DNA of 64,000 nt. It comes from Bacteroidales bacterium (GTDB lineage: Bacteria > Bacteroidota > Bacteroidia > Bacteroidales > UBA932). Below, piece by piece: positions 3,501 to 19,562 of this stretch (position 1 is its first letter; every line of letters begins with the position of its first letter). The notes under the pieces were generated by a model, which was given only the letters and a program-made list of their open reading frames with translations, was not told the DNA's origin and did no database searches. Made by a program: the position numbers and the translations under genes. The stretch is from the NCBI GenBank assembly GCA_017557535.1, contig JAFYYM010000070.1, positions 1 to 64,000 of the forward strand, written 5' to 3'.

Positions 3501-6500
3501 ATGAAGAAATCAGCCAAGGCCATCCTGGCCGTATTGACTTTGGCCGCCATCGCGGCCGCGGCGCCATCATGCAGCCGCTTCGGTAAAAGCAAGGGGCAAA
3601 GCACGGAATTCGCCACTTTTATTAAAGCCTACACAGGAGGCATTATCTCAGACAAGTCCACCATCAGGGTGGAATTGACCTCGGATATCGATGGTGTGAC
3701 TCCAGGAGCCGACCTTAAAGAAGGCATCCTGACTTTCACTCCTTCCATTCAAGGCACAGCCAGATGGCTTTCCCAAAGCACTATCGAGTTCATCCCAGAA
3801 AACGGGGCGCTCAAACCAGGGCAAGCTTATACCGGTAAACTTCGTCTGGACAAGATCCACAAGGTTGGATCCTCCAAGTTTAAAAGGTTCACATTCAACT
3901 TCCTGGTCGCGATCAAGGAGGCTGTCCTGGCGCTGGATGATATCACCATCACACCGGCATCTCCGGACAAGGCCAGCGTGAGCGGAACAATCGCCTTGAC
4001 TGAGGAGCTTCCTGTCGAGAAGGTACGCAAGATGATAGACTACAGCTATCCTGACAAATCCGGGGAACTTACAGTGACCGCCGGACAGGATCAGCTCAAC
4101 TATCACTTCGACCTGGTCGGCCTGAACAGGAGTGACAAGGACAACACATTGAAGATCACTCTCAAATCAGGAGATACCGGCTTCGTGGCTGATTCTAAGA
4201 TAGAGACCACTATCCCTTCCATGTCCGGGTTCAGTATTGTCAGCGCTGAGAGAGTGGAAGCTGAGGATCCGTATATCAGCGTGTTCTTCTCCAATCCCAT
4301 ACAGGACGTGGCCGACAACTCAGGGCTTTTCAAGCTCACCGGTGTCGGCAGGTATTATGTCCAGGCAGAGAACTCCCGGGCGAAGATTTACTACGAGAAT
4401 CCAGATGACGTCCCTCTGGCCCTGACAGTCTCAGGAGCTGTCAAGAGCTATGACGGCGTCAGGCTCGGGGCTGATTTCTCTAAGTCATTCTCAGCGGCAG
4501 AGGAGAAACCGGCCGTCGAGATTCCGCTTTCAGGGAATATCCTTCCGAACTCCAAGGAATTGATCCTTCCCTTCAAGGCTGTCAACCTCAACGCGGTGGA
4601 CATAAAAGTCATCCAGATTTATGAGGACAATGTGCTGATGTTCCTCCAGGACAATGATCTGAACGGGGACAACTCTTTGAGGAGAAGCGGCCGCCTAGTC
4701 TACAAGAGATGCGTCCGCCTGGATTCCGATCCATCCAAGAACCTCCACAAGTGGCAGGACTACAGCGTGGATCTTTCCGGCCTGTTCAAGCAGGAGGCAG
4801 GTGCGATTTATAGGGTCAGGATAAGCTTCAAGCAGGATTACTCCGTTTATGGGAAGTCAGTCGAGTTCAAGAGCGGCACTCCCACCAACGAGCTTGTCAG
4901 CCTGTATTCAGACCAGGCCTCAGATGAGGATTTCAGCGATTGGGACACCCCTTCGCCTTGGTTCTACGAGTCATACTACGATTGGGATCTCTACGAGTGG
5001 GAAGACAGGGATAACCCTCTGAAACCCACATACTACATGGATGAGGACAAGTTCCCGGCCATCAATCTCGTCACATCGAACCTCGGTGTCATCGCCAAGT
5101 ACTCGGGTGGTGACAAGATCTGGGTCAGCGTGAGCGATATTATCTCTGCCGAACCGGTCTTCAACTCCGAGTTATATGTCTACAGCTACCAGCTCAAGGA
5201 GATTGGCTACGCCAAGACCGGTACTGACGGAATGGCAGAGGTATCCCTGTCCGGAAAACCGTTCGTGGTAGTCGCCAAACGCGGAGGAGCCACGAGCTAT
5301 CTGAAGGTGACCTCCGGAGACGAGAAGACACTCAGCCGTTTTGACGTCGGTGGCAAGGTTCTCGACAAGGGGTTGAAAGCCTTCATCTACGGAGAGAGAG
5401 GAGTGTGGCGTCCCGGTGACACCCTCCACGTCACCCTCATTCTCGAGGACAAGGAGGATAAGATTCCTGACAACCACCCGGCCGTCATGGAACTTTACAC
5501 CCCCGAGGGACGTTTCTACGCCAAGAATGTCAATGGCAATGCCAAGGACGGATTCTACGTGTTCAACATCCCCACGAAGCAGGATGATCCCACCGGTTTC
5601 TGGAATGCGTATTTCAAGATCGGAGGCGCTACCTTCCACAAATCTCTCAGCATAGAGAGCGTCAAGCCTAACAGGCTGAAGATCAACATCGACGTGGGCG
5701 AGGGAGCCATCGAAGGAGGCAGCAGGGTACCTATTTTCATCGCCTCCAACTGGCTCACTGGACCGCCAGCATCCGGTCTGAAGGCGAAAGTGAACATGAC
5801 TTTAAGATCCGGTTCATCAACCTTCAAGGGATATGAGGGATACCGTTTCGTGACCCCGATGTCGAGCTTCTCCAGAAGCGAGTACGATCTCGTGGATTAC
5901 AATCTCAACCAGGACGGTGAGCTCCGGATCAATGTTGAGACCCCTAAAGCCAATGACGCTCCCGGCATGCTCACAGCGGACCTCGTCACCACAGTCGAGG
6001 AGCCGGGTGGTGACATCAGCTTTAACACCATGACGGTCCCGTATTCCCCTTATTCCGCCTATGTGGGTGTCAAGCTTCCAGAGGAAGGCGGCAGCCATTG
6101 GCTTGAGACCGACAAGGACTACAAGATAGATGTGATCGTCGTCGACAAGGAAGGTGCCTCAGTGGCTGGGGACAACCTCACTTATTCCATCTACAAGATC
6201 AAGTGGAGCTGGTGGTGGGAGAGTCGCAACGAGAGCCTTGACTCTTATGTCAACAGCTCATCAGCTGAGATGATCTCCTCCGGATCCATGAGATCAGCCA
6301 AGAATGGCAGCACGATACCGTTCAGGGTTGATTATCCTGAATGGGGACGTTATCTGCTGATTGTCAAGGACACCAATAGCGGACACATCTCTGGCGGAGT
6401 CTTCTACGCCGACTGGCCAGCCTATAGGGGAAGGTCATCCAAGGCGGATCCCGACGCTTTGTCGATGCTTTCATTCTCCACAGACAAGGAGTCCTACGAT

Positions 6501-15708: not shown

Positions 15709-15738
15709 ACAAATCGCCCACTTCGGTGGGCGATTTGT
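15709..15738 (-). terminator. Hairpin terminator behind yoeB
   Basis: A perfect 13-base inverted repeat (15709-15721 with 15726-15738) closed by a four-base loop (TTCG on the plus strand), directly at the yoeB stop codon. The T tract is weak on both strands, so efficiency is uncertain. Confidence 0.65.
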
Positions 15739-16004
15739 TACTTGTAATGGCCGAAAGTTGATAGAATCAATACCTCAACTATATCATCATAGATCCTATA
15801 AACCAGACGATGCTCTCTGGTGATTCTCCTGGAATAGACCGTACCATCATAACCTTTTAAGGTCTCGACCTGTCCGGTACCTGTACGAGGATGTTCTTTC
15901 AATTCATCAAGAAGTTGAGCCAGTTTTCTCACAGCAAGAGGCGCCTTCTTATGCAATATTTTCAAGTCCTTCTGCGCCTGCTCAGTAAAAACTATTCGGT
16001 ACAT
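15738..16004 (-). CDS. yoeB: YoeB-family mRNA interferase toxin
   Basis: An 88-residue RelE-superfamily ribonuclease that cleaves mRNA on the ribosome. It starts MYRIVFTEQAQKDLKILHK, has the central ELKEHPRTGTGQVETLKG segment with basic residues RRITREHRLVYRI, and ends in GHYK. The His-Tyr pair near the C-terminus is a catalytic feature of YoeB, and the length matches the family. The antitoxin gene lies 2 bases upstream in the same direction, the usual order. All key residues I can identify are present, so it is probably active. Confidence 0.92.
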   Translation of the reverse strand: MYRIVFTEQAQKDLKILHKKAPLAVRKLAQLLDELKEHPRTGTGQVETLKGYDGTVYSRRITREHRLVYRIYDDIVEVLILSTFGHYK

Positions 16005-16006
16005 GT

Positions 16007-16273
16007 CTATTCCGTCTCAATAAGCCTGTTCAGAAACTCTTCCGAACCCTCCCCATCATTCATCCTGAACACCTTACCCTTGGCATAGTCCTCAATGCCC
16101 TGACGGATTTTCGTTTCCAACTCATCGCGGCTGAGCAGAGTATCTCCTTCCACTACAGGAACAAGACGATAACTGCCGTGAGATCTGGATGTGATCACAA
16201 CATCATCGCTTTTTGCCAGAGCAAAATACTTCCGCTGGTTAGCCCTGAATTCCCTGCTGCTTACTACTACCAT
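16007..16273 (-). CDS. yefM: YefM/Phd-family antitoxin
   Basis: An 88-residue antitoxin. The N-terminal Phd/YefM fold (VVSSREFRANQRKYFALA) binds DNA as a dimer. The C-terminal acidic tail (NDGEGSEEFLNRLIETE) would wrap the YoeB toxin. It is the first gene of the toxin-antitoxin pair and should repress its own promoter together with YoeB. A palindrome at 16318-16332, 45 bases upstream, is the likely operator. Confidence 0.9.
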   Translation of the reverse strand: MVVVSSREFRANQRKYFALAKSDDVVITSRSHGSYRLVPVVEGDTLLSRDELETKIRQGIEDYAKGKVFRMNDGEGSEEFLNRLIETE

Positions 16274-17617: not shown

Positions 17618-18193
17618 ATGATTACTGGATATCGAAGTCTTTTACAAGCCAGCATTGATGACAAAAGCGCTGTCCTAAACCGTCTTGTTTTTTCAGTACC
17701 GGAACTAATCCACCGATCATTTGTTGAATTGGAGGATAATGCACATGAAACTGCACTAAAAAATAGTGATGGTGAGATGGAGATCTACTTTTCAATATAT
17801 CATAATGAATCTGAAAGATATAGACCTGAAGACGAAGAATGGATGATAACAGAGTTTTATCGCTCAATGGTCTTGAACATAAGTAGCTTTGCTGAAACCA
17901 CAATTAAAAGTTTATTACAGAATCCAGATGAAAGATTTCATGGCAATTATCTTTTTAACGCTTTCAATAAACTCAACGAAGAATCATACCTTCAATTAGA
18001 TGGAATAAGCACTTACTGGGAAGGACACCAGGACTTCACACAAAAAAGAAATGATATAGCACATAACTGCCGTGATGTCGACATAACAGCAGAGGAATTG
18101 TATGATGCCATTAATGGAGTTCATAGACTTCTTAGAGCAATCGCTGATGCTCTTAACCTAAGGACAGCAGAGGGGCGATCGCATTCATATTAA
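17618..18193 (+). CDS. HEPN-domain protein, possible RNase
   Basis: 191 residues, mostly helical. Near residues 148-153 it has RNDIAH, the Rx4-6H motif of HEPN ribonucleases, followed by a helix (AEELYDAINGVHRLLRAIADAL) as in RiboL-PSP-like HEPN proteins. HEPN domains are common in toxins, abortive infection and CRISPR effectors, where the Arg and His form the RNA-cleaving site. No MNT nucleotidyltransferase antitoxin is present. The next gene is a DUF3853-like protein, then a structured RNA locus. A defence or toxin role is inferred; a non-catalytic HEPN role is also possible. The gene is AT-rich. No protein name can be assigned. Confidence 0.6.
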   Translation: MITGYRSLLQASIDDKSAVLNRLVFSVPELIHRSFVELEDNAHETALKNSDGEMEIYFSIYHNESERYRPEDEEWMITEFYRSMVLNISSFAETTIKSLLQNPDERFHGNYLFNAFNKLNEESYLQLDGISTYWEGHQDFTQKRNDIAHNCRDVDITAEELYDAINGVHRLLRAIADALNLRTAEGRSHSY

Positions 18194-18270: not shown

Positions 18271-18597
18271 ATGATGACAGACAGAGACACATTCGTTGTT
18301 CAATTGACCGTAGGTGAGTTGATTGAAATTCTTAAAGAGAATTTTCCTATTCTATCATCGAGTCAAGTAACATCACCAATACCGGCGAAAGACAATTCAA
18401 GATCTGACGGCTCTACTTTTAGTGGTCGGCTGGTATATGGTTTAAGAGGAATACAAGAATTGTTCAACGTTTCCCACAAGAAAGCACAAGAACTGAAAGA
18501 CACCTTGCTCGCTCCTGCTGTAATGCAGAATGGTAGAAAGATCGTAACTGATGTTGATTATGCACTCAAACTGTTTGATAATCGCAAGAAAAAATGA
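18271..18597 (+). CDS. DUF3853-like DNA-binding protein
   Basis: 108 residues. The C-terminal part reads VYGLRGIQELFNVSHKKAQELKDTLLAPAV, then NGRKIVTDVDYALKLF. This is the pattern of DUF3853/excisionase-like winged-helix proteins found on Bacteroidetes mobile elements, where a short helix-turn-helix reads one element end or an operator. The N-terminal 45 residues (LTVGELIEILKENF) could be a short oligomerisation helix. It follows the HEPN gene in the same direction with a 77-base gap. It may regulate the neighbouring genes or act in excision. Confidence 0.65.
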   Translation: MMTDRDTFVVQLTVGELIEILKENFPILSSSQVTSPIPAKDNSRSDGSTFSGRLVYGLRGIQELFNVSHKKAQELKDTLLAPAVMQNGRKIVTDVDYALKLFDNRKKK

Positions 18598-18599
18598 GT

Positions 18600-18835
18600 A
18601 TTCAAGGATTTATCAGAGGTTTTTGTATCTTTGCAATGCGTGATTGTGGTTGACAATGATACCCTTGCACGCTCCCTTATGAGAAAGATTCTGTGTTGGA
18701 TTGAAGATCCTTCGGCGAGGGCTTTCTTATCATTTTGCATACGAGTTGGATTGTAGTTCCAACGGGTCACTGCAAAATAGTATCCTTGAATGGTATGCTG
18801 GATTTACTGTTCCAACCTCGGCCATTCAAGGATTT
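18600..18835. repeat. 12-base direct repeats flanking the hairpin array
   Basis: ATTCAAGGATTT occurs at 18600-18611 and again at 18824-18835. The complement of its first ten bases is at 18782-18791. The central copy can pair with either outer copy. The pair could be the scar of an insertion, or an alternative-pairing switch. Confidence 0.6.
18626..18633 (+). promoter_or_regulatory. -7 box in front of the hairpin array
   Basis: TATCTTTG, 29 bases after the DUF3853-like stop codon. The -33 element is not convincing. Transcription from it would start at about 18638, exactly where the first hairpin begins, and no ORF follows on this strand before a terminator. Confidence 0.55.
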
Positions 18836-18838
18836 TTT
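18638..18838 (+). ncRNA. Putative structured RNA: four hairpins in a row
   Basis: No gene is encoded here on the plus strand, yet four consecutive long inverted repeats fill about 200 bases. H1: 18638-18642 with 18668-18672, enclosing 18643-18647/18653-18657. H2: 18679-18687 with 18722-18730 (one G-U), enclosing GGAT/ATCC. H3: 18732-18739 with 18771-18778, enclosing 18745-18750/18758-18763. H4: 18782-18793 with 18822-18833, a perfect 12 bp followed by six T, serving as terminator. H2, H3 and H4 carry a similar inner motif (TTGGATTG or TGGATTT, then TTCCAAC or ATCC). A -7 box precedes the array. I do not recognise it as 6S, tmRNA, RNase P or SRP RNA. Confidence 0.5.
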
Positions 18839-19157
18839 ACCTGTCCTCGAGTCCTTCCTCATGCATCTTATCTCTGATTGACTCCTGCCAGTAGAGGGAA
18901 TCATGACGGTGCTTCTCGCTCGTTTCTTTTTCCTTTTCGATTTGATTGTCAAGAAGTTTCGCACCCATTAATCCGAGCATGACCTTGGTGCCTGAGTCCA
19001 ACTCTGAACTATCTACGGAGTTAAGTTCATCCTGTTTTCGAGGAGTACCCTTACCATCCCCGTTCTCTTTCTGGTTACGGAATCCGCACCACGCACCCCA
19101 CAGCAGGAATGCGATCATTCCGACAGCACCTATTAAGATCCCGATAAGAATATCCAT
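18837..19157 (-). CDS. Small membrane protein, unknown function
   Basis: 106 residues. An N-terminal membrane span (about 3-24, ILIGILIGAVGMIAFLLWGAW) is followed by a highly charged, probably helical cytoplasmic part with many Lys, Glu and Asp (QIEKEKETSEKHRHDS). I recognise no family. It reads toward the hairpin array, and its stop codon overlaps the T tract of the fourth hairpin, which may therefore also separate the two converging transcripts. It lies in the accessory island. Confidence 0.5.
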   Translation of the reverse strand: MDILIGILIGAVGMIAFLLWGAWCGFRNQKENGDGKGTPRKQDELNSVDSSELDSGTKVMLGLMGAKLLDNQIEKEKETSEKHRHDSLYWQESIRDKMHEEGLEDR

Positions 19158-19193: not shown

Positions 19194-19259
19194 CACATGC
19201 ATCAAGAGTCTCCCTTGAGGAGCGCCAACCGAGCAGCCAGAAGCCACGGTGGTAAAACG

Positions 19260-19562
19260 ATGCGGGATGTTCAATTCAAAAACAAGTATGGTTCTATGGA
19301 AAAGAAATGTACCTATCGCCTGGTCTGCGTCCAGAACGGACAGTATGGCTTTGTGCGCAAAAACAATGAAAGAATGGTTCTTGACCATCCTTTCAAAACC
19401 TTCGAGGAAGCTTTTAGAGCTGCTGAGAGGCGTTATCTAATGCTCCAACACTGCCCGGGAGATAATGACGAACTAGTTGGCACCCCGGAAGACTTCACCA
19501 TCACAGTGAAGAACACCGATATGGCCGATTTCTCCGATCACTACTTCATCGAGGAAGGATAA
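19260..19562 (+). CDS. Small hypothetical protein
   Basis: 100 residues from ATG 19260 (MRDVQFKNKYG); ATG 19296 (MEKKCTYRLV) is an alternative. The sequence is soluble and mixed alpha/beta, with YRLVCVQNGQYGFVRKNNERMVLDHPFKTFEEAFRAAERR split over two strands and a helix, and an acidic C-terminus. It resembles small regulatory or phage-type proteins, but I recognise no family. It is the last protein gene of the island before the tRNA. Confidence 0.45.
   Translation: MRDVQFKNKYGSMEKKCTYRLVCVQNGQYGFVRKNNERMVLDHPFKTFEEAFRAAERRYLMLQHCPGDNDELVGTPEDFTITVKNTDMADFSDHYFIEEG

Follow-up and report, generated by a model that had tools for sequence, protein, structure and literature searches.

A four-hairpin array in a Bacteroidales genome looks like a member of a previously undescribed family of modular small RNAs

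To our knowledge, few trans-acting RNAs are known in the Bacteroidales, in which Hfq and ProQ are not known. CsrB/CsrC and RsmY/RsmZ are protein-sponge RNAs with several hairpins that carry a GGA motif, and the RNAs of type III toxin–antitoxin systems are tandem structured repeats with the toxin gene downstream on the same strand. For FopS, the excerpted report (PMC11697453) describes a 5′ seed that is single-stranded and conserved and is followed by one terminator hairpin. We analysed a stretch of 64,000 nucleotides (hereafter the window) from a Bacteroidales bacterium, in which a four-hairpin array was read directly from the sequence at 18638–18838 on the plus strand. The array looks like one representative of a hitherto undescribed small-RNA family of bacteria, whose members have one to four related hairpins (hereafter G000 denotes the window's own genome and other G numbers denote sampled genomes). 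As in CsrB/RsmZ, several hairpins with a common GGA-containing motif are combined in one short RNA, but the GGA of the family lies in a helix and not in a loop, the family has no Rfam match, and CsrA was not found in the own genome (one genome, about 95% complete), whereas it was found in three of 14 controls including E. coli and B. subtilis. With FopS and GibS of Bacteroides, as far as the excerpt describes them, the family shares the organization of a multi-locus short sRNA family of the Bacteroidales with −7 promoters, and some of its copies lie beside glycan genes; it differs from what is described there in conserving a hairpin core instead of a single-stranded seed, in having up to four hairpins and in lacking an Rfam match. 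Tandem structured RNA repeats are also a feature of type III toxin–antitoxin RNAs, but the repeats of the family are diverged, they are not associated with one toxin, and the array in the window is followed by a convergent gene and not by a same-strand toxin. The C4 antisense RNAs (c4-2, RF02944) are likewise short hairpin RNAs; the c4-2 match beside the G471 array (L089 236–315, about 140 nt away and near a tRNA-Leu gene) is however separate and on the other strand, and the family RNA itself is unmatched.

A whole-window scan with Rfam 15 gave no match to the array at or above the gathering threshold, and the only matches above threshold in the window were one tRNA and one SAM-I-IV riboswitch. 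A permissive search of 18550–18900 (351 bases) returned two sub-threshold matches, which were taken for chance and not for the identity of the array RNA. Rfam also gave no match on the family RNA proper at 19 family loci, so that the view of the first-pass annotation, that this is not a recognised RNA class, stands for both the window and these loci at the Rfam cut-offs. Identity with integron attC sites was dropped by reasoning, since the conserved boxes of the family sit near the hairpin tip. Among the titles and abstract openings of the open-licence literature on Bacteroidetes or Bacteroidales small RNAs, none described this hairpin RNA.

The array is preceded by a −7 promoter box (TATCTTTG, 18626–18633, plus strand) that fits the Bacteroidetes TAnnTTTG, and the predicted transcript runs from about 18639 to 18838 on the same strand. 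The 5′-most hairpin D (18638–18672; stem GCGTG/CACGC) is followed by hairpin A (18680–18729; AAGATTCTGTGTTGGAYTG..TCCTTCGGCGAGG), the most conserved module, with 13 homologues aligned, by hairpin B (18732–18778; core GTTGGATTGTAGTTCCAAC) and by hairpin C (18782–18833), which has a perfect 12-bp stem (ATCCTTGAATGG/CCATTCAAGGAT), all on the plus strand. Together with its T-run, hairpin C would form an intrinsic terminator (18782–18838) in which the core is included; the run has six T (18833–18838), the first of which doubles as the stem-closing base. Hairpins A, B and C have a common core, consisting of an inner GGA/UCC helix and a 7–8 nt loop, which is absent from D. A and B are linked by a direct repeat (81% over 21 nt), and the motif models matched A (75.9 bits with model R1), B (36.3 bits with model R3) and C (25.3 bits with R3) but never D, of which an 88% identical segment was found in G032 by DNA search. 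Thus the −7 box leading into four inverted repeats (18638–18833), the perfect 12-bp stem with six T and the inner motif common to three of the four hairpins, all described in the first-pass annotation, were confirmed, and, as it had also noted, no ORF of at least 60 amino acids lies within the array on the plus strand. An exact 12-bp copy of the 3′ arm of hairpin C (18824–18835) is present at 18600–18611 on the plus strand (ATTCAAGGATTT); these direct repeats flank the array, and the upstream one is perhaps the trace of an earlier copy.

A 248-nt stretch at this locus folded at −74 kcal/mol, compared with −60.3±4.6 kcal/mol for dinucleotide shuffles (z −2.98; none of 200 as good). The opposite strand of the array also beat its own shuffles (z −3.48), and folding energy alone cannot choose the strand, because the complement folds well too, as palindromes do. 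Single hairpins gave z values of −2.37 (D), −1.48 (A), −3.08 (B) and −4.96 (C), so that A alone is unremarkable. Elsewhere in the family, hairpins A, B and D and module F of G032 (cut with flanks) and the hairpin of G051 folded no better than shuffles, with 25–115 of 200 as good.

Homologues were sought with sequence, pattern and covariance searches. A DNA search of 61 genomes (the own genome and 60 relatives) found three besides the own: G032, whose array is longer, and G051 and G018, each of which has only a single hairpin of type A. A pattern of hairpin A was present in two of 295 genomes of the order (G000 and G051), and a slightly shorter pattern was present in four records of the GTDB contig collection, namely G051, G032, G018 and the new L013, identical to the G331 contig. 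With model R1, nine of 300 genus genomes gave a match at E≤0.1, seven of those at E≤1e-11; the two weak matches, G413 and G012, were given no credit. The structure of hairpin A on which R1 was based (UGUUGGA with UUCGGCG) was later abandoned, because it is broken in G517, G563 and the G262 type, all of which agree with the GGA/UCC form. With the G032 array as BLAST query, 46 of 300 genus genomes had matches at E≤0.05, and 10 loci read out of these revealed the new array of G388 and three remnants (G482, G455 and G365). Model R2 matched 24 of 200 genus genomes and added G020, G479 and G471; here, 22 loci, not counting a match on contig C1 of G032, were inspected, and those without outer stem and promoter were set aside by eye. 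Model R3, which comprises the outer and inner stems, was used with cut-offs of E≤0.02 for the genus and E≤0.002 for the order. Within the genus it matched 28 of 400 genomes, and 14 of the 400 were credible after reading (G000, G018, G020, G032, G331, G388, G471, G479, G517, G558, G563, G589, G677 and G682, the last degenerate), the other 14 matches being set aside as coding or chance (G333, G360, G394, G400, G468, G521, G537, G548, G592, G601, G602, G648, G662 and G685). Seven of 291 genomes of the order matched; G000, G051, G262, G164 and G210 were credible, and G240 and G063 were set aside. Outside the genus, copies were therefore found in four of 290 other order-sample genomes, spread over three other families, and the credible set, judged by non-blind reading of the model matches, amounts to 18 genomes.

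The family transcripts are modular, with single hairpins or arrays of up to four. The order D-A-B-C of the window has counterparts in G032 (D-E, then F-A-B-C) and G589 (F-A-B-C); G677 has a 5′ hairpin and then A, G388, G020 and G479 have two-hairpin arrays, G558 has four hairpins by eye, and G471 has at least two, its array being cut by the contig end. A single A hairpin was found in G018, G331, G563 and G517 of the genus and in G051, G262, G164 and G210 outside it, where the RNA is 82–85 nt long and consists of hairpin A and a separate terminator hairpin. Module F (L021, about 295–370; L006, about 5965–6060, minus strand) is conserved between G032 and G589 and has no Rfam match. The 28 model-matched hairpins comprise 13 of type A, three that are the C of long arrays, and 12 others; the loop YUGUAGU occurs in nine of these 12 and in none of type A or C. 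Alignment and covariation showed that the outer stems vary freely, the conserved core being the internal loop, the GGA/UCC inner helix and a loop of mostly 7–8 nt.

Covariation was examined in several alignments: A7, which holds the 13 type-A hairpins; A4, which omits G331 and the D and F hairpins; and A6, which omits E, A of G589, C of G032, D and F. For the 13 A hairpins, RNAalifold predicted 15 pairs, four with changes on both sides, and the consensus fold of −9.23 kcal/mol compared with −0.82±1.21 kcal/mol for column shuffles (none of 300 as good). Pair 24–42, for example, is G-C in nine hairpins, A-U in three and G-U in one, and compensatory changes are present in both helices. With the structure given, A7 had 23 cells changed on both sides, beyond all 500 shuffles (9.3±2.4), and a covariation score of 0.274 against 0.133±0.018, whereas the count of both-side-changed pairs (six versus 5.7) and the further pair types (18 versus 16.5) were not above shuffles. 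The first five hairpins had shown seven both-side-changed cells against 2.3±1.3 in shuffles, with a pair count not above shuffles, and the inner helix alone, in 16 hairpins, scored 0.201 against 0.123±0.022, where further pair types again did not exceed shuffles. When all hairpin types were combined (28 hairpins), the score was 0.618 compared with 0.179±0.022, the rows having been fitted to the model. Two U-U positions of the inner helix are each unpaired in 12 of the 13 A hairpins; the same positions are often U-A or C-G in non-A hairpins. Furthermore, between the two species G262 and G164, the RNA is 93.9% identical, compared with 80.6% for the adjacent purE (gaps from the shorter G164 frame counted), 73.1% for the upstream flank and 26.4% for the downstream flank. 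Compensatory substitutions, whose absence from homologues had been put forward as grounds for refuting the RNA, are thus present in the A hairpins and in the 28-hairpin set, and this is very probably a real structured RNA family.

In 17 of 19 family transcripts, a TAnnTTTG −7 box is found no more than 60 nt before the first hairpin, compared with 1.07 expected from shuffles; its distance is 10–25 nt in 16 of the 17 and 42 nt for module F of G032, and it is missing in G589 and G682. A −33 TTG is visible in several copies (G331, G563, G051 and G677), and no clear one was seen in the window copy. A clear T-run is present in the window, G677, G563, G517, G388, G558, G262, G210 and G051, and a weak one after hairpin C in G032 and G589 and also in G331. 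As judged from these signals, the putative structured RNA is furnished with a promoter and a terminator of its own. Taken together, the covariation, the −7 boxes and the lack of a known-class match support, at the sequence level and for a predicted transcript, the original proposal of an undescribed small RNA.

In the window, the array is preceded by a HEPN-like gene (17618–18193, plus strand; PF18735, E 5e-6, 27 bits, just under the cut-off of 28.4) and a DUF3853 gene (18271–18597, plus strand; PF12964, E 1.7e-8), and is followed by a convergent gene (18837–19157, minus strand) whose stop abuts the T-run and whose 106-aa product has a membrane-type stretch at its start, no Pfam match and, by eye, a relative in G032. 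We regard the HEPN-like and DUF3853 genes as neighbours only. The special link to them that had been suggested earlier was not borne out, as Pfam analysis of most neighbours at most other loci showed no second HEPN and the nearest counterpart of DUF3853 elsewhere was an HTH_17 protein encoded on the opposite strand in the vicinity of the G388 RNA. By Pfam, the four intact genus single-A copies all adjoin glycan-use genes: SusE and a SusG-type amylase in G018, SusD in G331, SusD and SusF/SusE in G563, and GH53 in G517. The RNA lies after purE in G262 and G164, and in G262 before an IMP dehydrogenase gene; no clean empty site was found, G045 carrying a different gene after purE. A tRNA gene is located within about 1.4 kb of the arrays, remnants or copies of G000, G032, G482, G455, G479, G471 and G558. 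In G331 and G210 the RNA faces a convergent LPD3-domain gene, the two proteins being 42% identical, and in G051 a convergent 47-residue fragment reads, by eye, like the end of LPD3; these solo LPD3-domain genes (L013 3776–4147; L123 1543–1941; L007 2195–2338, minus strand, a fragment) stand beside single A-type RNAs in three different families. A PIN-domain gene with a small partner gene (L104 1558–2294, minus strand) is directly upstream of the degenerate G682 A hairpin, a GmrSD-type gene is near the RNA in G032 (Pfam), and the G020 RNA is immediately preceded, on its own strand, by the gene for a PD-T4-1-like defence protein (L070 1624–2817, minus strand; PADLOC). All of these neighbour counts are raw, and no enrichment is claimed for any neighbour type.

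Could the array be something other than an RNA gene? A 25-codon frame opens at the ATG at 18679–18681, and six of the 13 A hairpins start with ATG in that frame (G000, G018, G331, G563, G517 and G677) and read M-x-K-I-L-C-W or close to it, as would be expected if the sequence coded for a short peptide or a leader peptide and were palindromic by chance. However, a loop shorter by 2 nt in G018, G331 and G563 shifts the frame, yet the 3′ arm stays conserved, and in-frame stops occur in G517 (TGA) and the degenerate G682 (TAG). It is therefore the RNA and not the peptide that is conserved; we consider a peptide gene most unlikely, and the same frame-shifting indel speaks against a decayed ORF, which had been named as a possible refutation. 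A DNA-level element (a mobile hairpin, a recombination site or a bidirectional terminator) with incidental promoters would account for the shuffling of modules between arrays, for the different small genes that end against hairpin C, for the position of two of the three remnants beside a tRNA gene, and for the C hairpins (three of three) and H1 and H2 of G388, in which the other strand gives the better fold by a margin that ranges from slight to clear. This is nevertheless improbable: the sense strand of hairpin A, owing to its G-U pairs, folds better than the antisense (consensus −9.23 versus −5.11 kcal/mol), 17 of the 19 transcripts have a −7 box, the RNA beside purE is better conserved than its flanks in two species, and phage, plasmid and viral collections yielded no copy of the family RNA barring one viral-contig match, which was rejected as a chance match to tape-measure coding sequence. 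Thus, because of the promoters, the terminators and the strand-specific pairing, an RNA is favoured over a recombination or origin structure.

We propose that a small noncoding RNA of about 200 nt is encoded by the array: a Bacteroidetes-type promoter would start the RNA at about 18639 and hairpin C would terminate it at 18838. The RNA may act in trans as a binding platform whose core is recognised by an RNA-binding protein, and arrays would then multiply the protein-binding sites, decoy-like as in CsrB/RsmZ or in a 6S-type manner. As a whole, a modular hairpin small RNA acting in trans as a protein-binding platform is our best explanation, to which we give a little less than an even chance; protein binding via the repeated core, argued by analogy, is a tentative suggestion with a chance somewhat further below even. 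Recognition by a protein (or other ligand) is favoured because invariant letters lie on both stem strands and in the mismatches and because the core is repeated per RNA, but the single-hairpin copies are not multivalent and no single protein gene accompanies the RNA across loci. Since CsrA was not found in the own genome, a sponge would have to act on another protein. Pairing with mRNAs in trans through the loops or the leader, in the manner of FopS/GibS, is less likely but deserves consideration, as the size, promoter and terminator resemble those in the excerpted FopS report (PMC11697453), the four intact genus single-A copies lie beside glycan-use genes, and the loop YUGUAGU recurs in nine of the 12 hairpins left after type A and the C of long arrays are set aside. 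In contrast with the conserved FopS seed, the leaders differ by eye and the A loops vary; a search of both strands of the own genome showed no further site with three or fewer mismatches to the conserved A arm, which weighs weakly against pairing by that arm. That the RNA is an antitoxin or antisense RNA controlling a neighbouring toxin-type gene is quite improbable. The convergent LPD3 genes of G331 and G210, the probable fragment in G051, the PIN gene of G682 and the HEPN gene of the window point in this direction, and in polyvalent proteins of phages LPD3 is reported to occur next to RNase domains (excerpt of PMC5512222). The neighbour, however, varies by locus (LPD3, PIN, or 106-aa, 126-aa and 165-aa proteins), none of HEPN, LPD3 and PIN was seen beside the RNA in 13 of the 18 credible genomes (Pfam, most neighbours), and the window shows no same-strand downstream toxin as in type III systems. 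Finally, the hairpins may mimic tRNA anticodon arms and decoy anticodon-cutting RNases of mobile elements, with the arrays presenting several baits. Nine of the 12 other hairpins carry a 7-nt Y-U-G-U-A-G-U loop above a GGA/UCC stem, so that a U corresponds in position to U33 and GUA to the anticodon, and five of the 18 genomes have known or possible RNA-cutting gene types beside the RNA: HEPN (window), LPD3 (G331, G210 and the G051 fragment) and PIN (G682). But the A and C loops do not fit, the A stems contain U-U mismatches, LPD3 is not known as an RNase, and 13 of the 18 genomes showed no such gene, so we regard this idea as very unlikely. The family RNA would provide a defined bait with which to look for a new RNA-binding protein or ligand. 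The family spans four Bacteroidales families, the own and three others; its copies are located at glycan-use loci, in the neighbourhood of tRNA genes and next to purE, and its covariance model is usable for searching transcriptomes.

The SAM-I-IV riboswitch match of the window (19194–19293, plus strand; RF01725, 55.2 bits, cut-off 41.1) lies before a small gene and is not part of the RNA. No other was found in the own genome, and such a match occurs in 12 of 149 genus genomes; it seems unusual for a SAM sensor to stand directly before an orphan small gene of no known family. Six loci with arrays or remnants (G000, G589, G677, G455, G365 and G482) have a SAM-I-IV match at a distance of up to about 0.5 kb. 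A general link was rejected as one-sided, because at the 12 riboswitch loci in the 149 genus genomes the models place hairpins beside only one (G000); the G365 locus near SAM-I-IV is a remnant that the models missed. About 2.4 kb upstream of the array, the window also encodes a YoeB-type toxin (PF06769) together with a Phd/YefM-type antitoxin (PF02604, under the cut-off) at 15738–16273 on the minus strand.
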